From assembly GCA_016699775.1 (NCBI GenBank), contig CP065010.1, forward strand, positions 124,001 through 188,000: a stretch of 64,000 nucleotides of DNA, read 5' to 3'. This DNA is from Candidatus Falkowbacteria bacterium (GTDB lineage: Bacteria; Patescibacteriota; Patescibacteriia; Patescibacteriales; Patescibacteriaceae). The notes under the pieces are model-generated. The model did no database searches and had not been told where the DNA came from. It saw only the letters and a program-made list of their open reading frames with translations. Below are positions 2,338 to 19,456 of the stretch, piece after piece. The position numbers and the translations under genes were made by a program. Numbering within the stretch: position 1 is the stretch's first letter; every line of letters starts with the position of its first letter.

Positions 2338-3387
2338 ATGTATATGACAATATATAAAAAGAATAATTCCTACTGGGTTAATATTCGTTTTAATAGGAAA
2401 CGTTATCGTAAACCTAGCCCTCAAAATACTTTAGCTGGAGCAAAAGCTTATGAGTCTCTGCTTCGTCAAAAATTAGCTCGTGGTGAACCCATAGTTGATG
2501 AACCTGAAGAAGTAATAGCAGAGAAAACATTATTCAGTGCGTTTGCCTTTGATTGGTTTAATACCTATGTCAAGAATAACAATAAACTATCAGAGGTTAA
2601 TAATAAAAGAAGTCACTTAGACTCATCTATTATTCCTTACTTCGGTAAGAAGTATATAGATGAAATAACGAGCTATGATATTGAGAAATATAAAACGTAT
2701 TTGTCGGTAGTAAAAGAGATGTCTCCTAAAACGATAAATAATCGTTTATGCATTATTAGTAAATGCCTAAAGACTGCTGTTGAATGGGGAACTCTAGAAT
2801 ACATACCAAGAATTAAGTTACTAAAAGTCCCTCCTCAGCGATTTGATTATTTAACAGTTCAAGAAAGTGAATTGTTACTTCGAACTGCTAAGGGTCAATG
2901 GAGAGATATGATTCTCTTGGGATTACGAACAGGATTACGATTCGGAGAGATAGTTGGATTGAAATGGGAGAATATTGATTTTACGAAAAACGTTTTACAA
3001 GTTATGCAAACAGTCGTGAGGAATGTAGAGTCTAGTCCAAAGAGTAATAAGATAAGAACCGTTCCTCTTACGAAAGAGGTTACTGAAATGTTAAAAGATA
3101 GAAGCAAAGATGGAAAGTATATATTTCAAAATCCTAACGGCTCTTCATTACAAGGATATTTTTGTTTAAGAAGGTTACATGAGATATGTAGAGAAGCTAG
3201 CTTACGAAATGTTGGTTGGCATACATTACGTCACACCTTCGCTTCTCGTTTAGCAGAAAATAACATCTCAATTTTAGCGGTGAAAGAATTACTTGGACAT
3301 TCTGACATTAAAACTACAATGAGATATTCTCATATTAATTTGTCAGTCTTACAAGATTCAATCAAATCATTAGAGGTAGAAATATAA
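2338..3387 (+). CDS. Tyrosine recombinase / site-specific integrase
   Basis: 349 residues. The N-terminal ~60 residues form an arm-type DNA-binding region (IYKKNNSYWVNIRFNRKRYRK). Next is a core-binding SAM-like domain (about 65-165) and the catalytic domain. Catalytic residues visible in order: Arg in TGLRFGE, Lys in SNKIRTV, His-x-x-Arg in HTLRH, His in LGHSDIKTT and the Tyr nucleophile in MRYSHI. A second ATG two codons downstream may be the true start. The gene sits just inside the 3' end of tRNA-His, the normal place for an integrase targeting a tRNA gene. Confidence 0.93.
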   Translation: MYMTIYKKNNSYWVNIRFNRKRYRKPSPQNTLAGAKAYESLLRQKLARGEPIVDEPEEVIAEKTLFSAFAFDWFNTYVKNNNKLSEVNNKRSHLDSSIIPYFGKKYIDEITSYDIEKYKTYLSVVKEMSPKTINNRLCIISKCLKTAVEWGTLEYIPRIKLLKVPPQRFDYLTVQESELLLRTAKGQWRDMILLGLRTGLRFGEIVGLKWENIDFTKNVLQVMQTVVRNVESSPKSNKIRTVPLTKEVTEMLKDRSKDGKYIFQNPNGSSLQGYFCLRRLHEICREASLRNVGWHTLRHTFASRLAENNISILAVKELLGHSDIKTTMRYSHINLSVLQDSIKSLEVEI

Positions 3388-3493
3388 AAATGGTCACCAT
3401 ATGGTCACCCGAAGTTATAATCAGATAAATTATTAACAGAAATAATCTGTTTAAACTGAAAAAATACCCCAACATTAGGGATATTTTTAGATG

Positions 3494-3565
3494 GGTGGCT
3501 AGAGGGAATCGAACCCTCGCCAACGGGACCACAACCCGCTGTTCTACCATTAAACTATAGTCACC
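3494..3565 (-). tRNA. tRNA-His (anticodon GTG)
   Basis: Minus-strand cloverleaf with TAGTTTAATGGTAGAAC as D arm, GCGGG-TTGTGGT-CCCGT anticodon arm (GTG) and GAGGGTTCGATTCCCTC T arm. The 5' end carries the extra G-1 opposite C73 typical of tRNA-His. There is one acceptor mismatch (A4 with C69). CCA is not encoded. Its 3' end faces the integrase. Confidence 0.93.
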
Positions 3566-9469: not shown

Positions 9470-9502
9470 AAAAAGACACGTCACTACGACGTGTCTTTTT
9501 TT
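9470..9502. terminator. Bidirectional intrinsic terminator
   Basis: GACACGTC (9475-9482) pairs with GACGTGTC (9488-9495), flanked by A5 and T7, between two convergent genes. The stop codon of the leftward NYN gene lies in its loop. Confidence 0.92.
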
Positions 9503-10035
9503 GTAAAGGTTAGTATTTCTTGTTTAGATAATAGTCTAAAGTATGTGCAGTGATTTATTAAGGCTATTGATGGGGCATGCTTGAATCCTATATATAGTAA
9601 CTTTTTACCTAGACTTTTTATTTTTTGAATAGCAGGAATTAGATCTGTGTCTGAGGATAATAATAGTGCCGTATCATAATAATCTTCATAGGCACCAACT
9701 AATAAATCAACGGCAATATTCACATCAACACCTTTTTCGTGATAAACGCCATTATTTTTCATGAGATATCCTTTGTGAAGTTTGATATTTTGATCTAAAA
9801 GGGTATTGAAAAGAGTTAGTTGTCCTTGATGTATTTTTTTGGTTTTCTTGTCATGTTGATTCAATTGTACAGCGCCTACATAATAATTAATATCAGTTAA
9901 AATTCTGTTTTTTGTAAGGTACTTAGCGAGACCTCTATAGTTAAACTGACTTGTATGAGAAATATAAAGATTCTTTAGTTTAAAATATAGATTACTACCA
10001 TCAATATAAACAATAATTCTTTCTTCTTTTTTCAT
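9484..10035 (-). CDS. NYN domain (LabA/DUF88) protein, second copy
   Basis: About 183 residues starting MKKEERIIVYIDGSNLYFKLKN; the ATG at 10035 is preferred over upstream in-frame starts because those overlap the leader hairpin. NYN acidic residues: IVYIDGSN, KGVDVNIAVDLLVGAY and LLLSSDTDLIPAIQ. This arrangement is that of LabA-like PIN-fold nucleases acting on RNA. The C-terminal half ends in IGFKHAPS and a 'Y-F-R-L' helix. It is preceded by a promoter, a structured leader and a terminator hairpin seven bases from the ATG, so expression may be controlled by attenuation. Confidence 0.82.
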   Translation of the reverse strand: MKKEERIIVYIDGSNLYFKLKNLYISHTSQFNYRGLAKYLTKNRILTDINYYVGAVQLNQHDKKTKKIHQGQLTLFNTLLDQNIKLHKGYLMKNNGVYHEKGVDVNIAVDLLVGAYEDYYDTALLLSSDTDLIPAIQKIKSLGKKLLYIGFKHAPSIALINHCTYFRLLSKQEILTFTKKDTS

Positions 10036-10170
10036 ATAATGAAAAACCCTCACGATGGTCATTAAGACCAAGGTGAGGGTTTTTGAACCCCTGTGGTGCC
10101 CTTGCGGTCAGTCTAGGGGGGATTAGTAAATGTATGTATTACTACTTAAATCTGTATTTATCTGGATAAA
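10036..10170 (-). promoter_or_regulatory. Candidate attenuator leader of the NYN gene
   Basis: On the minus strand a leader of about 130 nt ends in a strong terminator: AAAAACCCTCAC with GTGAGGGTTTTT (10042-10074) and an inner GGTC/GACC stem. A CCCC...AGGGG element (about 10077-10120) lies upstream. Its GGGGTT can instead pair with the AACCCT of the terminator's first arm, giving an antiterminator-like alternative. No known riboswitch class was recognised. Confidence 0.5.
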
Positions 10171-10757: not shown

Positions 10758-10810
10758 AGTGTGAATATATTCTCATTTTAGTATAAAGCAAAATATATAT
10801 AATAGAAAGG

Positions 10811-10847
10811 TAATAAAAAACCGCTAACCTTGTTATTTGGTTAGCGG
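10811..10847 (-). terminator. Terminator of the hammerhead-ribozyme operon
   Basis: CCGCTAACC (10821-10829) pairs with GGTTAGCGG (10839-10847). Read leftward, the stem is followed by TTTTTTATTA. It closes the leftward accessory operon, between the 164-nt structured RNA and pth. Confidence 0.9.
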
Positions 10848-10941
10848 TAATGAATTGATTATATTTCTTTTTTAAATCAATCTATGTAAATATATGCAAT
10901 ATTTTATAAATCTATGCAAATCTATGCATAAAATAACTGGT

Positions 10942-11105
10942 CTTACCTAAATGTATCCGCTGACAAATGTGATCGTGTGGGCCAAAGAGTCCATACTCTA
11001 GAGGAGAGAGATTTTATACTCTCCCGTATATTGTACAGGTCAGGGAGAGTGTAGAGTACAGCTCCCTGGCCTGATCTTTCTTGTCAGCGGGTATATTGAG
11101 GTAAG
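10942..11105 (-). ncRNA. Candidate 164-nt multibranched structured RNA
   Basis: Closing stems: CTTACCT (10942-10948) with AGGTAAG (11099-11105), and CCGCTGACAA (10957-10966) with TTGTCAGCGG (11081-11090), 10 bp perfect. Inside are three hairpins: AGAGT/ACTCT (10986-10999), GGAGAG/CTCTCC (11003-11024) and a 12-position stem at 11036-11047 with 11062-11073 containing one mismatch. There is no plausible ORF. It lies between hammerhead 1 and the operon terminator. It does not match 6S, SRP, tmRNA or RNase P signatures that I know. Confidence 0.65.
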
Positions 11106-11107
11106 TT

Positions 11108-11182
11108 CTGTTTCGTCCTGTGCTTGTTTGCCCGAGAGGGTAGAGGCGTGGACTCATCAGTCAAGATTATATCTTGAGACAG
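11108..11182 (-). ncRNA. Type III hammerhead ribozyme 1
   Basis: Minus strand: stem III TTCTG/CAGAA, cleavage triplet GTC, stem I TCAAGAT-ATA-ATCTTGA (7 bp), core CTGATGA (11154-11160), stem II GTCC/GGAC closing a 31-nt insert, core GAAA (11111-11114). All invariant hammerhead bases are present. Predicted cleavage lies between 11178 and 11177. Stem III is the open stem, so this is type III. It follows the gene at 11222-12007 and a hairpin. Confidence 0.9.
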
Positions 11183-11183
11183 A

Positions 11184-11212
11184 AGGAGCTTAACTAAGCA
11201 TGCTAAGCTCCT
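11184..11212 (-). other. 3'-end hairpin preceding hammerhead 1
   Basis: AGGAGCTTA (11184-11192) pairs with TAAGCTCCT (11204-11212), one base from stem III of the ribozyme. After cleavage it would form the 3' end of the upstream mRNA. Confidence 0.75.
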
Positions 11213-11221
11213 AAAATACGA

Positions 11222-12007
11222 TTATTTTGATCTTGTAATTTTCGAGACGTAGGTCCCTAAATTAGCAAGATCTTTTAGATCTTCTATTTCTTTGGGGTTT
11301 ACAACCCTAAAGTTTTTTAAAGATCTTTCCTTTCCTGGTTCCCCAGTATAAGGTGAGTCGCAAACATGATAATCATACCCACTCATAAAGGGTAATATCA
11401 CATTTTTTAACCACCGCTCTTGCCATTTGTTGGTTTCTTTTGAAAACTTTTGCCACCCCTTCTCATAAGCAGATAAGACATCTAGGGCTGTGTATCCTAT
11501 CTGTCTTATATTTTCAGCTATAAACTCATTCGAGATCTGAATCTCGAATGGCTTAATAATCAGGCTACCATAGCCTGAAAAATCGCTAGACCACCACCCC
11601 ATTTTTTCAGGGGGAGTTGATGACGAAAGACCATATATGACCGGCCTGCTATATTGTCTTAAACCGAGTTCATTTATGTTGAAGGAGTTTAGATACTTCT
11701 TATCAATTAAAGGGAATTTAATTCCGATTTTAATTAATATTTCCTTATCCGCTTCTAGGAGATGAACAGGTTCTGGCAAGAATCTGCATGTTATTTTTTT
11801 TGAATATTTTTCTGGAATAGTAATTAGACTATCCCATAAAACTTCACAGCCCCACATGTTGTGGTGGAACTTCCATATATGGGCTGTGCCGATTGCAAAT
11901 ACCCCTGTTCGTGTGTTGGGGAGTTTTACATATATATCAAAGATATTTCTTATATCTTGATATGATGATGGTTCAATCGGAAAAAGCTTTTGTATTTTTA
12001 TTCCCAT
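11222..12007 (-). CDS. Hypothetical protein in the hammerhead operon
   Basis: 261 residues with no family that I recognise. It is soluble (no signal peptide or membrane segment), rich in Trp and Tyr, with stretches such as FAIGTAHIWKFHHNMWGCEV, MGWWSSDFSGYGS and GYDYHVCDSPYTGEPGKER. The start is supported by an AAGGA Shine-Dalgarno about 9 bases upstream, unlike most core genes here. A 17-bp leader stem-loop and hammerhead 2 lie upstream; a hairpin and hammerhead 1 follow. Function unknown. Confidence 0.7.
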   Translation of the reverse strand: MGIKIQKLFPIEPSSYQDIRNIFDIYVKLPNTRTGVFAIGTAHIWKFHHNMWGCEVLWDSLITIPEKYSKKITCRFLPEPVHLLEADKEILIKIGIKFPLIDKKYLNSFNINELGLRQYSRPVIYGLSSSTPPEKMGWWSSDFSGYGSLIIKPFEIQISNEFIAENIRQIGYTALDVLSAYEKGWQKFSKETNKWQERWLKNVILPFMSGYDYHVCDSPYTGEPGKERSLKNFRVVNPKEIEDLKDLANLGTYVSKITRSK

Positions 12008-12034
12008 TTTTGTGTCCTTCCTTGATACACATTT

Positions 12035-12102
12035 TTATTTTAGAAAAAAGCCCCGATAGAATATTAACGATATAGTCTACCGTTCGCTTTTTTCTAAAAT
12101 AA
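12035..12102 (-). promoter_or_regulatory. Leader stem-loop (17 bp) of the 11222-12007 gene
   Basis: A perfect 17-bp stem (12035-12051 with 12086-12102) with core TTTTAGAAAAAAGC/GCTTTTTTCTAAAA closes a loop of about 34 nt. It lies between hammerhead 2 and the SD of the gene. Likely an mRNA-stabilising or regulatory leader. Confidence 0.7.
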
Positions 12103-12150
12103 TAAAGAGAATATCTTATTATTTTACATATTAAGTTATTAATGAATTAA

Positions 12151-12199
12151 CTGTTTCGTCCTTTAGGACTCATCAGCACAGATACACATCTGCGAACAG
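12151..12199 (-). ncRNA. Type III hammerhead ribozyme 2
   Basis: Minus strand, 49 nt: CTG-TT (cleavage triplet GTT), stem I CGCAGAT-GTGT-ATCTGTG (7 bp, one G-T), CTGATGA, stem II GTCC-TAAA-GGAC, GAAA, CAG. The core is intact. Stem I differs from copies 1 and 3 but stays paired. Stem III is short, 3 bp plus the A-U pair. Confidence 0.88.
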
Positions 12200-12200
12200 A

Positions 12201-12229
12201 GAGAAGTTATCAACTAACGATAACTTCTC
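12201..12229 (-). other. 3'-end hairpin preceding hammerhead 2
   Basis: GAGAAGTTATC (12201-12211) pairs perfectly with GATAACTTCTC (12219-12229) over a 7-nt loop, one base from stem III and seven bases past the stop of the upstream gene. Confidence 0.78.
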
Positions 12230-12236
12230 AATTATT

Positions 12237-12847
12237 TTAGAAAATATCACTGATTTCCCGGTCCTCCCAGGTAATTCCACCAGTTAATTTTTCGCCATCC
12301 CAGAAATAATAATGGGATACTGGCGAACCATATAGGCGTCCTGAGTAACCAGTACGGAAAATAGAATTTTCTGGAATCACAGCAATAATTTGTGATCCTG
12401 ATCCCATTCTTCCAGCATCGCCTTGGGCAATCATACCTTGGCAGATAATTTCGCCCGGGAAGGGGAGAAATTTTATTTCATCACTCCTTTCCAAAGGTTG
12501 AGGATCGCGATCTCCTGTGTGAGAGTTTCCTCCCCTAAAACCGATGTCTGTGTAGAAAACTCCAATCATAGAGTTATCATTTACATTTTCGGTTTCAGAA
12601 ACCACAAGTTTTGGTTTCCCAGACTTTGTTTTGGAAGTTGTGGCTGAGTTAATATTTATTTTGCCATTAATCTTCCATTCCTGGTACTGCAAATTAGTGA
12701 GCTGGACGGGTAAACTCCGCGTTCCCTACCCCGACCTTCTTCGCCGACAATAATTGCCGGAATTTCCAGGTTGGCTCCTTTAAGAAGAAGTTTTTTAATA
12801 ACTGCCCCTTCGGAAACGGAACCAGAATTAATCGTGAAAATTTTCAT
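12237..12847 (-). pseudogene. Hypothetical protein with a single-base frameshift
   Basis: Two overlapping frames make one protein of about 203 residues. The first (12847 to about 12700) starts MKIFTINSGSVSEGAVIKK and includes EIPAIIVGEEGRGRERGV. The second continues with PVQLTNLQYQEWKINGK and ends ITWEDREISDIF. One missing T in the GTTTACCC stretch near 12,710 would rejoin them as GVLPVQL. A strong AGGAGA Shine-Dalgarno precedes the first ATG. I do not recognise the family. It could be a decayed gene, a sequencing error or a slippage site. It lies between hammerheads 3 and 2. Confidence 0.65.
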
Positions 12848-12910
12848 TATTTCTCTCCTTTCTTTAATGCTCTTGCTTTATGTATAAGCGTGAGCGTTTA
12901 TTATTCAATA

Positions 12911-12960
12911 TGAACAACATATCGAATATAAATTTTAAATTATATTCAAAATGTTGTTCA
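12911..12960 (-). promoter_or_regulatory. Leader stem-loop of the 12237-12847 gene
   Basis: TGAACAACAT (12911-12920) pairs with ATGTTGTTCA (12951-12960), and inside it GAATATAA pairs with TTATATTC. It lies between hammerhead 3 and the SD of the gene. Confidence 0.7.
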
Positions 12961-12977
12961 GATTGAAATAGGAGATT

Positions 12978-13026
12978 CTGTTTCGCCGTTTTCGGCTCAT
13001 CAGTCAAGATATACATCTTGATACAG
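12978..13026 (-). ncRNA. Type III hammerhead ribozyme 3
   Basis: Minus strand, 49 nt: stem III TTCTG/CAGAA, cleavage triplet GTA, stem I TCAAGAT-GTAT-ATCTTGA (7 bp), CTGATGA, stem II GCCG-AAAA-CGGC, GAAA. Stem II differs from copies 1 and 2 (GTCC/GGAC) at both strands, a compensatory change. All core bases are intact. Confidence 0.9.
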
Positions 13027-13029
13027 AAA

Positions 13030-13062
13030 AGGAGCTTCTACATAACCAATATAGAAGCTCCT
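13030..13062 (-). other. 3'-end hairpin preceding hammerhead 3
   Basis: AGGAGCTTCTA (13030-13040) pairs with TAGAAGCTCCT (13052-13062), three bases from stem III. The 13063-13174 spacer up to the gene holds no ORF that I trust. Confidence 0.75.
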
Positions 13063-13174
13063 AAAAAACCCGTAGTTGGACACTTTGTGCGTAGCGACAG
13101 CACGGGCGGTCCGGTGAGAACGCCTGTTAATTTTTATGAATCGGAATTAGCTAAACCGATTGAAATCGATAATT

Positions 13175-13501
13175 TTAAGCAGCTTTTTTTGCCACTTTTT
13201 GATTATTAATTTCTGAAAGAATTACTGAGCAGTCGAAGACCGCCTCAATAATTTTTTTTACCCCACCATTGGCCTCAATGACCTTTGATGAGATTAAAAG
13301 TTTAACCTGATCGGCAGGTCTTCTGGACCTGTTGATCATTGACACTATTTCCGGTGTCAATAGGTTAAATATTTTGGAGGCGCGGTTCAAGGAACCCACG
13401 CCAATTTTTTTTGCCACCTTTATTGCTTGGTGGCTCGGGATATCAAAGGCTTCAATAGCCAATGACAAGGTTAAAACAAAAAAGCTTTTTGTATCACTCA
13501 T
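13175..13501 (-). CDS. Hypothetical helical protein in the hammerhead operon
   Basis: 108 residues, predicted mostly helical (IEAFDIPSHQAIKVAKKIG, then LTPEIVSMINRSRRPADQVKLLISSKVIEANGGVKK), with a basic C-terminus (QKVAKKAA). No membrane segment, no known family. A strong AGGAGG Shine-Dalgarno precedes the ATG. The upstream spacer carries a tRNA-like minihelix and several hairpins. Hammerhead 3 follows about 110 bases after the stop. Confidence 0.65.
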   Translation of the reverse strand: MSDTKSFFVLTLSLAIEAFDIPSHQAIKVAKKIGVGSLNRASKIFNLLTPEIVSMINRSRRPADQVKLLISSKVIEANGGVKKIIEAVFDCSVILSEINNQKVAKKAA

Positions 13502-13546
13502 ATTTAGGCCCTCCTAAGACCTGTTTTTGATTATTTTTTGTTTTAG

Positions 13547-13596
13547 TGAGTCGGTGAGGGATCGAACCTCTTACTGCCGAAAATCATTCCGACTCA
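13547..13596 (-). other. tRNA-like minihelix (acceptor stem plus T arm)
   Basis: Minus strand: TGAGTCGG (13589-13596) pairs perfectly with CCGACTCA (13547-13554). The 3' side contains GAGG-TTCGATC-CCTC, a tRNA T arm, followed by the 7-bp acceptor strand and a discriminator A. Only about 17 nt replace the D and anticodon arms. No CCA follows. It may be a degenerate tRNA or a tRNA mimic. Confidence 0.6.
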
Positions 13597-13599
13597 TTG

Positions 13600-13788
13600 A
13601 AGCACATATTTACGTCTGACGACGAAGGAATCTGCTTTCCTTAGGCACACGTGTGTTGACCTTTTAAGCGCCATACCCGTGATACTTTCTTTTGCCCGTA
13701 CTTTAACGTTGATGGCTGGGGTATAAAAACTACCCCTCTTCAACAACCGGAAATAGTCAGTTTCCGGAACTATACTGATGATCGATGA
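13600..13788 (-). other. Structured spacer between two accessory genes
   Basis: The region holds no ORF but several hairpins: GGGGTA/TACCCC (13718-13736), CCGGAAA/TTTCCGG (13747-13767) and, read on the minus strand, AGGAA/TTCCT and CGTC/GACG. The first gene's stop is followed directly by the CCGGAAA hairpin, but no hammerhead core (CTGATGA...GAAA) is present here. Confidence 0.45.
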
Positions 13789-15057
13789 CTAGTCGAGCTT
13801 TTCTTTCATTTCTTCCGATTCATCAACCATCATTTCGTTAATATTTAACTTCATGTATATGACTTTTTGGAAGTTGAAGTTTTTAATCATTTTCGATATG
13901 TTCACATTTTCTAATAAAGATTGAATCTTTATACCAGTCTCATTGACTTTGATATTCATTTCATTCATAAAGCTCTCGGTGCCGGGCAAACAGTTACCGG
14001 TATCGAGTGAATCCTGGATACATATGTATGTTTCAGGATGTTCCTTCATTATTCTAAGTAAATCTAAACCCGCTCTTTTTCGAGCATAAAGGTAGTCTTG
14101 CTGAGCTTTTTTTCTGAGGCCCTCGTGTAATATTTCTGATATTTTTTCTTCAGTTTTGCTGAAGAATTCAATAACTGAAAAATTCTGCTCAAAGTCAATC
14201 CATTCCGACAACTCGTTCTCGATCCACCACTTTCCATTCGCATACTCAGATCGTTTGGTTTCAATGAAGCATTCTATTTGGGAATTCTTTCTCTTAAAGA
14301 ATATACCATTTCCAAGGCTTTCCCATCCGGAAAAAATTCCCTTTGTTTTTCTTGGATCATTTTCGTATTTTTCGTCAAATACCCCGTCTCTGTTACTATG
14401 TAGCCATACTTCTTTTTCTGGAACTTTGAATATACTTAGTTTCTTCATAAGGATATTATCATTTCCATCTGGTATTTGGTGCCGATACTGTCTCAAATCA
14501 ATGAATCGCGTTGCTCTGAGTCCGTAAAATCCGAAATTAATTAACGCCCATTTTATTTCTTTTTTCTTTCCGTTTAGGTCATAGAGCGTATCTTCTATGA
14601 CGGACACTTTAGGAATGTTATATCCACGGTCTTCATAAAGATTATTTTTCCAGCACCCCCAATTTACGAGGGTCTTTATTACTAATTCTGGATCGTGAGG
14701 TAAGAAAACTACCATTGTTCCATCTGTTAAAACTATAGGTTCTTCTCTGTCCATCCCCCCATGGCTAATAATTGGCATATAGCCGAATATTTCTTTGCCA
14801 TTTTCAAGGACATGAACTACTTTTTTGTACTGCTGATCTCTTGCATCGGTTCGGTAAATACCGAACTGTATGTGGTCATTTGGTTCGTTAATCCACCCAG
14901 ATCCCGAGTCTCCGGATCTTGATGTATAATAATCTTTTCCGCCAAAAAGCTCGTGAACTTCTTCACGATTCTTCTCGTATGAAAAAAATCTTTTTTGTTT
15001 CAATGAAAGAAGGATATCATCTACCCCTCCCCCGAATCCAAGCTGAAGTTTTTTCAT
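13789..15057 (-). CDS. Hypothetical protein, first gene of the hammerhead operon
   Basis: 422 residues. I recognise no family. It is soluble and rich in aromatic and charged residues (NEPNDHIQFGIYRTDARDQQ; NFGFYGLRATRFIDLRQYRH; IENELSEWIDFEQN). Near the C-terminus is a distinctive ICIQDSLDTGNCLPGTESFM segment, which could be a small conserved active or binding motif. An SD (GAGGAG) in the loop of a short GC hairpin lies about 10 bases upstream, behind a long leader stem-loop. The gene is headed by about 680 nt of structured RNA and a consensus promoter. Confidence 0.72.
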   Translation of the reverse strand: MKKLQLGFGGGVDDILLSLKQKRFFSYEKNREEVHELFGGKDYYTSRSGDSGSGWINEPNDHIQFGIYRTDARDQQYKKVVHVLENGKEIFGYMPIISHGGMDREEPIVLTDGTMVVFLPHDPELVIKTLVNWGCWKNNLYEDRGYNIPKVSVIEDTLYDLNGKKKEIKWALINFGFYGLRATRFIDLRQYRHQIPDGNDNILMKKLSIFKVPEKEVWLHSNRDGVFDEKYENDPRKTKGIFSGWESLGNGIFFKRKNSQIECFIETKRSEYANGKWWIENELSEWIDFEQNFSVIEFFSKTEEKISEILHEGLRKKAQQDYLYARKRAGLDLLRIMKEHPETYICIQDSLDTGNCLPGTESFMNEMNIKVNETGIKIQSLLENVNISKMIKNFNFQKVIYMKLNINEMMVDESEEMKEKLD

Positions 15058-15063
15058 TTCATT

Positions 15064-15162
15064 CCCGCTCCTCTGCGGGCTTTTTTAGTTTTAACAACAC
15101 CCCGAACCACTACTCAGCATAGGGATAAATGAGTAGCAATCCGTTCGTGTTGCTAAAACTAA
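15064..15162 (-). promoter_or_regulatory. SD-in-loop hairpin and leader stem-loop
   Basis: CCCGC/GCGGG (15064-15079) presents the GAGGAG Shine-Dalgarno in its 6-nt loop. Upstream on the transcript is a 16-position stem, 15085-15100 with 15147-15162 (one mismatch), whose loop holds CTACTCA/TGAGTAG. Read on the plus strand the GC hairpin is followed by T6, so it could also stop rightward transcripts. Confidence 0.65.
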
Positions 15163-15169
15163 AGGAGTT

Positions 15170-15850
15170 TTGAGTAAGGCAATGAAATACCAACATAATG
15201 TATTGATGTAAGTATAATAAAAAGACTCTGACGCTCCGGTTTATAATCCCCGAACGTATAACTCGCCTTTTGCCTTTTCAAACTATTAAATTGTTAAAGA
15301 ATTGTGATAAAGGATTGCTTTGTATTTACTATCAGCAAAAGCGATACCACAGTGTTTGTTTCCTCTCTCCTCATCTCTTACATTAACCTCAGTGGTTAAT
15401 TAGAGAATGGTTGTAATAAGGAAATTTGTGATAGTGAAGGGGGTTAGTCTTCAACTATCAGCCGATCTCATTATTACTAAGAACGGTTGATAGGAATGAG
15501 GTTCCGGAGGCTTGCCCGATACTACTTGGTGAGTATCAGATGGGTCATGCCGTACTAATCATTGCCCGCGGTATGAACGGTTCGTTTTCCATTCTCGCGC
15601 TTGTCGGCCTCACCGGTGACTCTCTCCTCGAGAAACAGCCGGCTAAAATCCTATCTAACGAAATATTTATATAAAGAACTAAACTTTTTTCTCTCCTCTT
15701 TAAGAATCTCTCTCTTATTGAGGGAAGTATGGAGGGGAGGGAGGAACCATTGTTATATATAAGTCTATTGTTCCTCTCCTCTCCAAGCTTCCATCTATAA
15801 GTTGTTTATTTGACTGATTGTTAATTTCCTGTCCTAATCTTATCTTGATA
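15170..15850 (-). ncRNA. Large structured leader RNA candidate (~680 nt)
   Basis: No credible ORF on either strand. It begins at a perfect consensus promoter and contains many local inverted repeats: GGAAG...GGAGGGGAGGGAGGAAC with GTTCCTCTCCTCTCC...CTTCC (about 15724-15791), GATACT/AGTATC inside GCCC/GGGTC (15515-15545), CTCATT/AATGAG, GATAGTGAAG/CTTCAACTATC and CATGCCG/CGGTATG. GC content is locally raised. Signatures of tmRNA, RNase P, 6S and SRP RNA were looked for and not seen. It could be a long 5' leader or a separate ornate RNA. Confidence 0.55.
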
Positions 15851-15855
15851 AAATC

Positions 15856-15884
15856 ATTATACACCATATCTCTAGTTTTGTCAA
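15856..15884 (-). promoter_or_regulatory. Perfect consensus sigma70 promoter of the hammerhead operon
   Basis: Minus strand TTGACA (15879-15884), 17-bp spacer, TATAAT (15856-15861). It faces left, into the structured RNA and accessory genes. Confidence 0.88.
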
Positions 15885-15976
15885 GAGGGTGTGACTAATA
15901 TTTTATAATATTGTCTTTATATAATAAAAAAAAGCATAAAATGCTTAATATATTTATATAAAAATGTCATAGTATC

Positions 15977-16005
15977 TTGACAAAATATATATCAAGGTGT
16001 ATAAT
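15977..16005 (+). promoter_or_regulatory. Perfect consensus promoter of the TrmB-like regulator
   Basis: TTGACA (15977-15982), 17-bp spacer, TATAAT (16000-16005). The flanks TCTTGACAAAA and GGTGTATAATGA are identical to those of the divergent promoter at 15856-15884, so a shared regulator is plausible. Confidence 0.88.
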
Positions 16006-16038
16006 GAAAGTATATTTAAGTAACCTACTATTTATTCT

Positions 16039-16812
16039 ATGACTACTTTGACGAGCGCTCCAAGCTATCAACAATCCTTGATCCAAGCTGGATTATCAGA
16101 TGAACAGGCCTTAATATATGAGTATTTAGTGAAAAATGGGCCTCAAACAGCTGGTAAAGTTAGTATTTCAACCCCTCTAAAGCGGGGCTTGGTCTATAAA
16201 ATACTGGATAGCTTGGTTGAAAACGGTTTGGCCATAAAGCACGATGCTCCAGGTAAAGTAGCTATGTTTGAACCAGCGCACCCTTTGAAGCTAAGAGAGC
16301 TAGCTGAAAAAAAGGAAGCAGATGCCAAAAATGCTCAAGAAGCTTTAAAAGGCGTGCTTGAGAAAATGACGATTGATTATAATTTAATCTCTGGTCGACC
16401 GGGGGTGAAGTTTTATGAGGGGAGAGAGAGGATTAAAGAATTGATTTTTGATAGTTTAAATGCCAAAACCGAGATTCTTACCTTGGCTGATGTAACAGCG
16501 GTAGAAAAATATATAAAAGATATTGATGAGGAATACGTAAAGCTGAGAAATAAAAAAGGTCTTGCTAAGCGGTTACTAGTACTTGATACCCCTGAAGCTC
16601 ATGGGATGGAAGGGCGTCCTGAACATTTTACTGCCACTACAAAATATTGTAAGTTAGAAATTTCTCCATTTAGTACAGCGATGATGTTATATGATGAGAA
16701 GGTTGTCTTTTTAACCTTAACAGAGAAATATATTATTGGTTTTTTAATCGAAGATAAATTTATTTATTCTACTCAAAAAGCATTATTTGATTTTATTTGG
16801 AATAAAGCTTAG
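16039..16812 (+). CDS. TrmB-family transcriptional regulator
   Basis: 257 residues. N-terminal winged helix (about 15-80): GLSDEQALIYEYLVKNGPQT, then KRGLVYKILDSLVENGLA, then the wing ending MFEPAHP. This is the TrmB arrangement, followed by a short coiled coil and a C-terminal ligand-type domain (YEGRERIKELIFDSL ... MMLYDEKVVFLTL). TrmB proteins usually sense sugars in archaea; in CPR genomes their ligand is unknown. The gene is divergent from the hammerhead operon with a near-identical promoter, which makes it a candidate regulator of that operon (inference). Confidence 0.85.
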   Translation: MTTLTSAPSYQQSLIQAGLSDEQALIYEYLVKNGPQTAGKVSISTPLKRGLVYKILDSLVENGLAIKHDAPGKVAMFEPAHPLKLRELAEKKEADAKNAQEALKGVLEKMTIDYNLISGRPGVKFYEGRERIKELIFDSLNAKTEILTLADVTAVEKYIKDIDEEYVKLRNKKGLAKRLLVLDTPEAHGMEGRPEHFTATTKYCKLEISPFSTAMMLYDEKVVFLTLTEKYIIGFLIEDKFIYSTQKALFDFIWNKA

Positions 16813-19436
16813 GCTGCTTTTGATTTTAGATAGTCCTGAGATTCAAGATAGTTGATTTCCTGTTCGAATATTAGATTGATGTAATTTTTTTTATTATTGA
16901 TTTGATGATCAAGATGGGTGATAACATAAGAAGGTTCATCTGTTTTATCAAGGAGATGTTGTATCGCTTCCATATCATTCTCAGAGGGTTGGAATAAATT
17001 GTCAGTTGGGATCGTTAGGTTAAAAGTGTGGTATTGTTTTAGTTTATCAAAATTATGAGATTTAAATAATGAATTAATTAAATCATCAGGTAATTTTTCC
17101 GTCTCAGTTTTACGTCGAAGGTACTGTTGGTTTAATTGATCGTCTCTTTTAATATTAAAAAGATGGATACCGGAAGCCTTATCAGGAGTTATCCCAGTAA
17201 TGACGAAATTTTTTTTATTGATGTAGTGTTGACTTACATCTCTTCTCATCTCTACTACACCAGTAAGTTCATTATGTTGGGCAATAGTGTCCATTGTCGC
17301 CGTTTCAAAAGCGGTACCAATTGAAGAACCAGACGCCAATGGATCAACCATAAATGAACCGGCATAAACTGATTTAAAATCTTTTTGATCAAATCTAATA
17401 CAAGCAATTAGTTTGTCTTTTTTACTTAATACAAACCAGCGTGATTTATCGCCTGAAGCTATGGCATTAGAGATATCTGATTTGACCTCATTTTGAATTA
17501 CTGGATTTTCTTTGTAGAGTCGTTTCGCTAGATCAAATATTTGGGCTTTGGTCGTTGGTTCTAATTGTGTTGCAGTTTGTGAACGTATATTAAGATCGTG
17601 AAGGTCATTTAAATCTGCATCAGGATTATTTTCACGAGCGTTTTTGAAAAGAGCACTTAAAATGATTGTATCTATCTCAACTGTTTTAAGTTCTTTTGTA
17701 ATCTTTTCGTTAAGTTCATCACGGGAAGAAGCTGCGAGATCGGGCTGCTGTAATTTAGTCGCGTAAGAAACTAGTATTTGTTTGGCGCGTCGAATGATCT
17801 CCATTGTTGGGTGTATCGTTAGGTCAGTTTTAAAATAAGTGTTTTTCAACTCAGCTTCTGTTTTCCGAATAGTATTAGTAATTTGATTAACAGTAGAAAA
17901 AATTTTTGAGGCGATTTCAGGGGTTGTTTTTTGGGAAATAGTAAAAATATGTTCGGCATTTTTTTCATCATCTTCCATACTTAAAAATGTTTTAATGCCG
18001 TTTTCTCCAAATTTTTCTATAAACTTATGTAATCGCGTTTTATCTGCAGGGGAAGCTTGAGTATAAAAAATTAAAAACCACCCTTGCTCTTTAAAGGTTA
18101 AATTATTAAATTGGACACCAGAAGTTTTGAACATTGGAGATTGAGCAAAATCATAGTACTTGTCTTTAAAGGATTGTAGATATTCTAGTCGTTTGTGATA
18201 TTGAGGCGAATTTGGATCCGGTGTTTGTGAGAAAATGGTATCATATTCAATTGTTCGTATTGTTGGTGAAATATGATCATCTGTGGTTAGGTCGCCAACA
18301 TGAAAATATGCGTCAAGCTTGCGTTGACTTGTGTTAAAAATTCCAACTTCCCCATCATTGGTTACGCGTTCACCGTAGAAGTCATTATTATTATATTGTG
18401 ATCCAAGATCGAAAGTTTTTTCAAGGTAGGGTAAGCCATCAGCTCCGATCGGTATTGCTCGATCTTCTAATCGATAGAGTATAATTAAAGCAATTTCTTG
18501 TTCATCCGGTGTTCCGTTTTTTGCGATGTTAAGTAGCTGAGAGGCTGATTTCGGAATGCTGATCTTTTTTAAAGCCTCCGCAGTATTAATGATATTTGCA
18601 TACTTTGATACTCCATCATCGTTTGGGAACTTTGAAGATATGGCAGATTGAATTAATGGCTCAATAAAATCTTGATCTTTTGATTCTCCCATTATTTCAA
18701 TAATTTTTTTTCTTGCGTAAGTAAAAGTAGAATCAGCCGGATTGGTTATAATGTCATGTAAGGTTACTTTGTCAAAATTATTACCTGTTTGTGGAATTTT
18801 TATTGCTCGGGTATTGATAATTTTGCCGATGATTTGATTTGATGATTGATCGGGAGGAATATCTTTTATAATAATTTCGTCAGCCACTTTTAGATATTCA
18901 CTTTCTATATCGCTGAGTTCGTGTTCAATTAAATTTTTTAAATAGATTTTTTCTGTGGGATTAATTTCTAACGGGTTGATGAGATTTAGTTGGTTGATAT
19001 TTGTTTCTGTTTGGTGGTTTTTAGTATTATAATCAGAAAAAATATTATGATAAAATTCAAAATTTGTTGAAGCAAAGATTAGTTGTTTTTTTAATCGATC
19101 CTTTTCAAAATGATCTGGCTCAGGGCCAAATAGCGCTTTATAATTTTCTAGATCTTCAGAAAATTTTTTGTATCTTTTTTTATTAGATTCATCGTTTATT
19201 TTTTTTCTTTTGTCCTTAATTTCTTTGATTCTATCTAGATCTGTTTGAAGAAAGGGTTTTTTGGAATAAATAGCTAATAATTCGTCATCTAACTGTTGTT
19301 CTAATAAAAGATTTTCAAATTGATCTTTAATAGGAGTTAAGCCAGAAGATTCAGTTTCATTTATCAAGTTGGTTTCATTAGTTTTTTTTTGTTCTTGTTC
19401 AGACAGATCATTGAAAGTAAATCGGTATTTTTCCAT
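16809..19436 (-). CDS. Large hypothetical protein with HEAT-like and GNAT-like regions
   Basis: 875 residues, very Lys/Asn/Asp rich, no signal peptide. The N-terminal ~170 residues look coiled-coil. A helical-repeat (HEAT-like) part includes QDFIEPLIQSAISSKFP and NIAKNGTPDEQEIALIILYR. Near residues 700-790, KLIACIRFDQKDF, then VDPLASGSSIGTAFETATMD and NKKNFVITG, resembles a GNAT acetyltransferase core with an acetyl-CoA-loop-like segment. No substrate can be named. Its stop overlaps that of the TrmB-like gene by four bases. The start ATG lies 20 bases upstream of der's stop (leftward order der, then this gene). Confidence 0.6.
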   Translation of the reverse strand: MEKYRFTFNDLSEQEQKKTNETNLINETESSGLTPIKDQFENLLLEQQLDDELLAIYSKKPFLQTDLDRIKEIKDKRKKINDESNKKRYKKFSEDLENYKALFGPEPDHFEKDRLKKQLIFASTNFEFYHNIFSDYNTKNHQTETNINQLNLINPLEINPTEKIYLKNLIEHELSDIESEYLKVADEIIIKDIPPDQSSNQIIGKIINTRAIKIPQTGNNFDKVTLHDIITNPADSTFTYARKKIIEIMGESKDQDFIEPLIQSAISSKFPNDDGVSKYANIINTAEALKKISIPKSASQLLNIAKNGTPDEQEIALIILYRLEDRAIPIGADGLPYLEKTFDLGSQYNNNDFYGERVTNDGEVGIFNTSQRKLDAYFHVGDLTTDDHISPTIRTIEYDTIFSQTPDPNSPQYHKRLEYLQSFKDKYYDFAQSPMFKTSGVQFNNLTFKEQGWFLIFYTQASPADKTRLHKFIEKFGENGIKTFLSMEDDEKNAEHIFTISQKTTPEIASKIFSTVNQITNTIRKTEAELKNTYFKTDLTIHPTMEIIRRAKQILVSYATKLQQPDLAASSRDELNEKITKELKTVEIDTIILSALFKNARENNPDADLNDLHDLNIRSQTATQLEPTTKAQIFDLAKRLYKENPVIQNEVKSDISNAIASGDKSRWFVLSKKDKLIACIRFDQKDFKSVYAGSFMVDPLASGSSIGTAFETATMDTIAQHNELTGVVEMRRDVSQHYINKKNFVITGITPDKASGIHLFNIKRDDQLNQQYLRRKTETEKLPDDLINSLFKSHNFDKLKQYHTFNLTIPTDNLFQPSENDMEAIQHLLDKTDEPSYVITHLDHQINNKKNYINLIFEQEINYLESQDYLKSKAA

Positions 19437-19456
19437 ATAATTTAGAAAATATAATT

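Follow-up and report, generated by a model that had tools for sequence, protein, structure and literature searches.

What task would three self-cleaving ribozyme motifs perform between the genes of a bacterial chromosome? The question is raised by a stretch of 64,000 nucleotides (nt) of Candidatus Falkowbacteria bacterium DNA (contig CP065010.1, positions 124,001 to 188,000; hereafter the window), in which a preliminary description, made from the sequence alone, had pointed out three type III hammerhead ribozymes on the minus strand. Each of these motifs is immediately preceded by a predicted hairpin, and the answer that we consider somewhat probable is that hairpin and hammerhead III motifs together would cut one likely shared operon transcript into separate messages with protected ends.

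The three motifs are located where they had been reported, and direct reading of the sequence confirmed that all core bases are kept in each of them, that the stems are paired through differences that compensate between copies, and that the cleavage triplets are those originally given. In order of transcription, copy 3 (12978-13026, minus strand, triplet GTA) comes first, followed by copy 2 (12151-12199, minus strand, GTT) and copy 1 (11108-11182, minus strand, GTC), the last with a long stem II. The conserved core, composed of CUGANGA, GAAA and an NUH triplet, is present in all three, and the predicted cut sites on the minus strand lie after positions 13022, 12195 and 11178, respectively. The covariance search that the preliminary description had proposed as a check was performed with cmscan against all of Rfam (E values for the 64-kb window), and matched the Hammerhead_3 model (RF00008) to copy 3 at 43.3 bits (E 4e-6), to copy 1 at 40.1 bits (E 3e-5) and to copy 2 at 30.9 bits (E 0.013). 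All copies are thus hit by the model and all score below its gathering cut-off of 48.5 bits, which is an inclusion rule of Rfam and not a property of the ribozyme.

Exact matches to the core pattern CTGATGAG...CGAAAC were found at copies 2 and 3, and none in 100 dinucleotide shuffles of the window; copy 1 falls outside this strict pattern, which does not allow a long stem II. A covariance model, R1, was built from an alignment (A3) of 70 hand-chosen copies, comprising copies 2 and 3 of the window, four copies from Patescibacteria and 64 of 76 picked virus copies. R1 scores copies 3 and 2, on which it was partly built, at 65.9 and 72.4 bits, and it recovered copy 1, unseen at building, at 51.8 bits (E 9e-12), with no further match in the window up to E = 10. 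Stem cells are paired in 97.9% of cases on A3, where 301 double-sided changes were counted; shuffles gave 81.5, and sliding the partners gave no more than 43. The assignment of the window motifs to the type III hammerheads is supported by the Rfam matches, the covariation and the full conservation of the core, and self-cleavage is predicted.

We then turned to a larger pattern, absent from the preliminary description: a hairpin lies flush against the 5' side of each copy. On the minus strand, a 14-bp hairpin (13030-13062; fold -20.8 kcal/mol; listed as terminator-like) ends 3 nt before copy 3, a 12-bp hairpin (12201-12229; -15.7 kcal/mol) ends 1 nt before copy 2, and an 11-bp hairpin (11184-11212; -16.2 kcal/mol) ends 1 nt before copy 1. 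These hairpins begin 7-112 nt past a stop codon, and the distance from gene end to ribozyme is 149 nt for the open reading frame (ORF) c108 and copy 3, 38 nt for c151 and copy 2, and 40 nt for c261 and copy 1. On the opposite side, a long inverted repeat (arms of 27-32 nt, 81-87% complementary) is found downstream of, or overlapping, each hammerhead end (12904-12967, 12025-12112 and 10935-11112), the first two folding far better than shuffles.

The same pairing of hairpin and ribozyme was observed in virus contigs. IMG/VR was scanned with the strict ribozyme pattern, which is blind to hairpins, yielding at least 120 loci; removal of duplicates brought the 125 copies with enough flank down to 92 and then to the 83 listed non-redundant copies to which the following counts refer. 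A strong flush hairpin is present on the 5' side in 61 of the 83 and on the 3' side in 12, while dinucleotide shuffles gave a mean of 5.0 and a largest value of 10 (20 rounds). When the best hairpin alone was used for ranking, its end lay 0-3 nt from the ribozyme in 56/83 copies, against 4/83 in shuffled sequence and 4/83 downstream. It could be argued that the hairpin serves the ribozyme itself, stacking on stem III and thereby speeding its folding or blocking misfolding with upstream RNA, message ends being incidental; indeed, stem III is modelled with 4 pairs only and the hairpin is 0-3 nt away, so that stacking could help. However, stacking would also be possible for a hairpin located 3' of the ribozyme, the side on which so few of the copies carry one; we regard this explanation as unlikely.

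None of the 61 flush hairpins is followed by a terminator-like T tract (at least 5 T in the next 8 nt), which rules out that they are ordinary terminators in general, the hairpin of copy 3 in the window being a possible exception. Being on the 5'-product side and usually lacking a T tract, the hairpin would fit a role as the 3' terminus of the upstream message once cleavage has taken place. Gene positions, taken from a mechanical gene caller, point in the same direction: the upstream stop codon lies a median of 33 nt before the ribozyme (interquartile range 27-39, 64 copies), the next start codon a median of 25 nt after it (interquartile range 21-40, 56 copies), and both flanking genes are codirectional in 53/83 copies; 15 copies within ORFs of this caller were left out of the distances. 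The short distance to the next start could also mean that the ribozyme chiefly sets the 5' end of the downstream gene, trimming or insulating its leader, and that the hairpin is there by coincidence, as part of the upstream gene. In line with this, the hammerhead variant of a halovirus is located 13 nt upstream of a start codon, and the mapped 5' end is at most 3 nt from its cut, as given in the available part of Perreault et al. 2011 (PMC3088659). Nevertheless, at equal distance past other stop codons of the same loci a hairpin is found in only 35/221 cases, and the window has 132 and 144 nt between ribozyme and next start; this alternative appears distinctly unlikely.

Regarding the arrangement of copies, arrays in virus contigs hold 2-4 of them, at spacings of approximately 0.3-2.3 kb. 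These values come from a survey of 28 loci (27 of the at least 120 virus loci and one phage record), which were hand-chosen, some for already showing several copies. Such recurrence, and the type III copies set 0.6-1 kb apart in plant retrozymes (available part of PMC7761336), would be compatible with arrays that yield RNA circles or spliced products between successive cuts. Yet circular or spliced products from bacterial arrays went undetected in the 2011 study, as far as its available part goes (PMC3088659), and Pfam matches to the six ORFs in the 8.7-kb stretch that contains the ribozymes in the window (delimited below) include no reverse transcriptase; we give a retrozyme-like role scarcely any credence. 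Named phages similar to four of the virus loci amounted to two weak matches, both to MW202828.1, in which no R1 match at E <= 1e-3 was found in the 20.9 kb examined.

Processing of a shared transcript, the reading that we prefer, would proceed as follows. Transcription from a promoter match at 15884-15856 would give one long RNA via ORFs c422, c108, c151 and c261, with RNA polymerase passing through each hairpin, because the T tract of a terminator is generally missing. Each hammerhead would then fold and cut 5 nt into its own sequence. Hammerhead cleavage leaves a 2',3'-cyclic phosphate; hairpin ends that carry this group resist 3' exonucleases, and a 5'-OH resists decay that depends on the 5' end. 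The upstream message would end in its hairpin and a tail of 6 nt (copies 1 and 2) or 8 nt (copy 3) with a 2',3'-cyclic phosphate, and would be a poor substrate for 3' exonucleases, whereas the downstream RNA would start with a 5'-OH at stem I and offer poor entry to 5'-monophosphate-dependent decay.

The genes of the presumed operon were analyzed in turn. Between it and a divergent TrmB-like gene, two perfect promoter matches (12/12) stand back to back: the presumed operon start at 15856-15884 (minus strand), of sigma-70 type (TTGACA-17-TATAAT), and one before the TrmB-like gene at 15977-16005 (plus strand). The presumed first gene, c422 (13789-15057, minus strand), has no Pfam match, and its best PHROG match is at E 0.078; its relatives are 10 proteins at 35-53% identity and one identical entry, with matches in 2/379 Patescibacteria genomes, and its predicted fold (mean pLDDT 76.3) has no match in the PDB at E <= 0.001. 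A leader of 800 nt (15058-15855, minus strand) without any ORF of at least 80 aa, and with a hairpin at 15710-15806, separates c422 from the promoter; long leaders also occur in other islands of the kind described below, and some share short blocks. The next ORF is c108 (13175-13501, minus strand). Close to it, at 13488-13699 (minus strand), an acceptor stem and T arm resembling those of a tRNA, but no full tRNA, can be made out by eye; the region has a weak Rfam match to RT-2 RNA (22.3 bits against a cut-off of 40, E 0.019) and none by ARAGORN, and its 74-nt fold does not exceed shuffles in stability (z -0.34).

ORF c151 (12237-12692, minus strand) corresponds to the 3' portion of a gene that a frameshift seems to have interrupted: of 377 related proteins at E <= 1e-3, the best is 91% identical and 203 aa long, and intact forms have approximately 203 aa. 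Relatives of c151 are present in 10 virus-contig loci; moreover, they occur without a convincing ribozyme match nearby (14 loci), ruling out that each ribozyme is tied to its own gene. ORF c261 (11222-12007, minus strand) has no Pfam or PHROG match and, besides an identical entry, one relative at 36% identity. No relatives of c422 or c261 were detected in virus contigs by tblastn, and no phage genes were found among the four operon ORFs with Pfam and PHROG. The frameshift, and a scan of ORFs that brought up no convincing gene for a phage structural protein, could be taken to mean that a prophage or other element has decayed and left the motifs behind as inactive remnants. However, all core bases and stems are kept in the three copies, with differences that compensate, and we hold such decay of the ribozymes to be very improbable. 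Tyrosine recombinase genes are found at 2338 and 3916, at least approximately 6 kb from the stretch, and one of them is syntenic in a relative; the end of the gene at 2338-3564 is separated from a tRNA-His gene by approximately 100 nt, an arrangement like that at the border of an integrated element.

To what extent are such motifs found elsewhere in the Patescibacteria, a phylum of very small bacteria? The window PNPase is 69% identical to that of a Patescibacteria metagenome-assembled genome (L121); of the best four, L123 carries the name Falkowbacteria, and the gene set is Patescibacteria-like. The strict core pattern matches 4/379 Patescibacteria genomes, with a flush hairpin in three by score and in the fourth by eye only. 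R1 matches at E <= 1e-3 per genome were obtained in 39/379 genomes, a number that may be low, as 12 candidates were scored per genome under stricter filters. Two or more neighbouring copies occur in three genomes (G138, G166 and G034), the first of which has five matches inside 3.3 kb of one contig. Of the distinct copies that were parsed, 19/34 carry a flush hairpin, compared to 2/34 when shuffled; in contrast to the virus set, these copies may be slightly enriched in ones that bear a hairpin, since the flank upstream of the ribozyme is included in R1 in the form of unpaired columns. The flush hairpin is absent from a second group of hammerheads in the phylum (L216, L223, L227-L230 and L237), and some of the hairpin-less copies seem, by eye, to be directly followed by promoter-like sequence. 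At L239 (G166:C8, 9974-11653), one hammerhead comes after a gene for a MoxR-like ATPase and another after the next gene, which encodes a VWA-domain protein. In eight of the closest relatives, the RF00008 search returned three weak matches (E 0.4-0.74), none of them convincing.

The ribozyme operon is part of a stretch of 8.7 kb between pth and der (10758-19456, ends approximate), which also contains the divergent TrmB-like gene and a large protein, P875. The stretch is missing between pth and der in the four closest relatives, in all of which the matches to these two genes are 7-157 nt apart and beside the same LytR-family gene. Its A+T content (64.5%) is nearly equal to that of the window (64.2%), and composition therefore gives no sign of foreign origin. 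No similar plasmids were found at megablast level. PADLOC, run on seven proteins of the region, gave a weak match for the TrmB-like protein and a strong one (HEC-09, E 1.6e-24) for an NYN-domain protein that lies outside the stretch, beside pth (9484-10071).

The TrmB-like transcription regulator (16039-16812, plus strand; PF01978, E 9.8e-10), which may control the ribozyme operon, is placed tail-to-tail with P875 (16809-19436, minus strand). A GNAT-like part of P875 matches Acetyltransf_1 weakly in the window (E 0.015), more strongly in L244 (1.8e-9), and above the Pfam cut-off in some relatives. Genes similar to P875 were found in 23/379 Patescibacteria genomes, and among the 20 loci examined from these 23 genomes, 18 have the TrmB-like gene tail-to-tail with it, the other two being without TrmB in the sequence examined. 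Only 2/20 of these loci have hammerheads, so that the ribozyme appears optional to this type of island. In one genome (G255) the order is that of the window, with ribozyme (minus), TrmB (plus) and P875-like gene (minus), and in another (G299) c422-like, TrmB and P875-like genes recur as in the window, with no hammerhead within the 9 kb examined. In this hammerhead-free relative (L282, G299:C51), another intergenic block (626-1016, 1812-2120) is repeated 2-3 times between genes at 85-96% identity; it has no Rfam match at E <= 1 and may be a further punctuation RNA.

A divergent promoter match of at least 11/12 is present within 800 nt of TrmB in 16/17 islands with enough sequence, including the window, against 20/409 random stretches of the same loci. 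In addition, 6/47 Patescibacteria ribozyme clusters lie at most 3 kb from a TrmB gene above the Pfam cut-off, five of the six divergently, as compared to 0.52 expected in a test that was conceived only once the window had been inspected and that relies on rounded genome sizes. Judging by these sequence features, the loci L299-L316, L244 and L282, with the TrmB-like/P875 pair tail-to-tail and, in most, a near-consensus divergent promoter, represent a Patescibacteria island family with varied cargo.

Several observations weigh against the processing of a shared transcript as outlined above. Within the window, the next start codon is 132 nt past copy 3 and 144 nt past copy 2, compared to the usual 25 nt; the hairpin of copy 3 is terminator-like and could itself terminate transcription, and terminator-like sites number 11 in the region, as compared to 4.4 in shuffles. 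Promoter-like sites are overall fewer than in shuffles (10 against 18.0), and hence only the perfect scores support the two promoters. The broken c151 may indicate that the stretch is partly decaying, or an assembly error, and 14 loci with c151 relatives showed no convincing ribozyme match nearby (best E 0.14). Two of five covariation measures are not above shuffles (10 pairs with double changes against 8.9, and 33 pair types against 32.3), and the GTT triplet of copy 2 is rare, being found in 2/83 listed virus copies. Among these virus copies, the flush hairpin is missing in 22, the downstream gene is convergent in nine, and 15 are inside an ORF of the mechanical caller, and 15 of the 34 parsed Patescibacteria copies are without a flush hairpin.

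What prokaryotic hammerheads do is an open question according to the available part of a review (PMC6155905), and a 2023 paper states, in its available part, that their association with genes still lacks an explanation (PMC10085705). The one-sided flush hairpin provides a specific reason for the position of the ribozyme that is open to a simple construct test, and a likely job of these bacterial ribozymes is now testable. In a wider and more tentative proposal, which we place slightly short of an even chance, hairpin and hammerhead III may be one selected, RNA-only maker of message ends, standing in for terminators and nucleases. Such a unit would act in phages and in the TrmB-controlled cargo islands of Patescibacteria, cutting polycistronic RNA after each gene, capping both new ends and letting genes of any origin enter an operon as separately stable messages. 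Hammerhead matches are found in about one in ten of the sampled Patescibacteria genomes, some tied to a patchy, regulator-bearing island, and the hairpin-ribozyme unit could be a natural part for making stable separate messages.

Among known systems, RiboJ-type insulators also combine a hammerhead and a hairpin that define message ends in bacteria; unlike the window units, they are engineered, their hairpin is downstream, and they act on the 5' end of one gene. The 3' ends of phage mRNAs are made by terminators or RNases and, as proposed here, the terminal hairpin protects the message, but in the window the RNA would cleave itself, as a rule without a T tract. The type III hammerheads of plant-virus satellites and viroids share the fold and the open stem III of the window copies; they process circular RNA replicons, whereas the window is part of a DNA chromosome with protein genes between the copies. 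Retrozymes, as portrayed in the available part of PMC7761336, have this fold and open stem III too and process retrotransposon transcripts, in contrast to the protein genes of a DNA chromosome here.

The closest parallel is found in prophages, where, according to the available part of Perreault et al. 2011 (PMC3088659), clustered hammerheads border single genes or short blocks of genes, whose identity varies, as several flank genes in the window. That source reports that prophage arrays cleave in vitro, one triple array being active both in vitro and in E. coli, and had already proposed processing into single-gene or operon-length messages. The preliminary description, which called three tandem copies in a bacterial operon unusual, was in this respect only partly right, as clustered hammerheads, including the active triple array, were published then; hammerhead clusters around prophage genes and the idea of transcript processing have been known since 2011. 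The available parts of PMC3088659, PMC10085705, PMC7761336 and PMC6155905 do not describe the flush hairpin, and no title or abstract among the open-access matches listed mentions it or hammerheads of Patescibacteria. Unlike the prophage clusters, for which the available part of the 2011 paper (PMC3088659) describes neither a flush hairpin nor a TrmB-like regulator, the window copies are located on a Patescibacteria chromosome; novelty appears to lie in the hairpin flush with the ribozyme, in the occurrence in Patescibacteria and in the surrounding stretch with its regulator.

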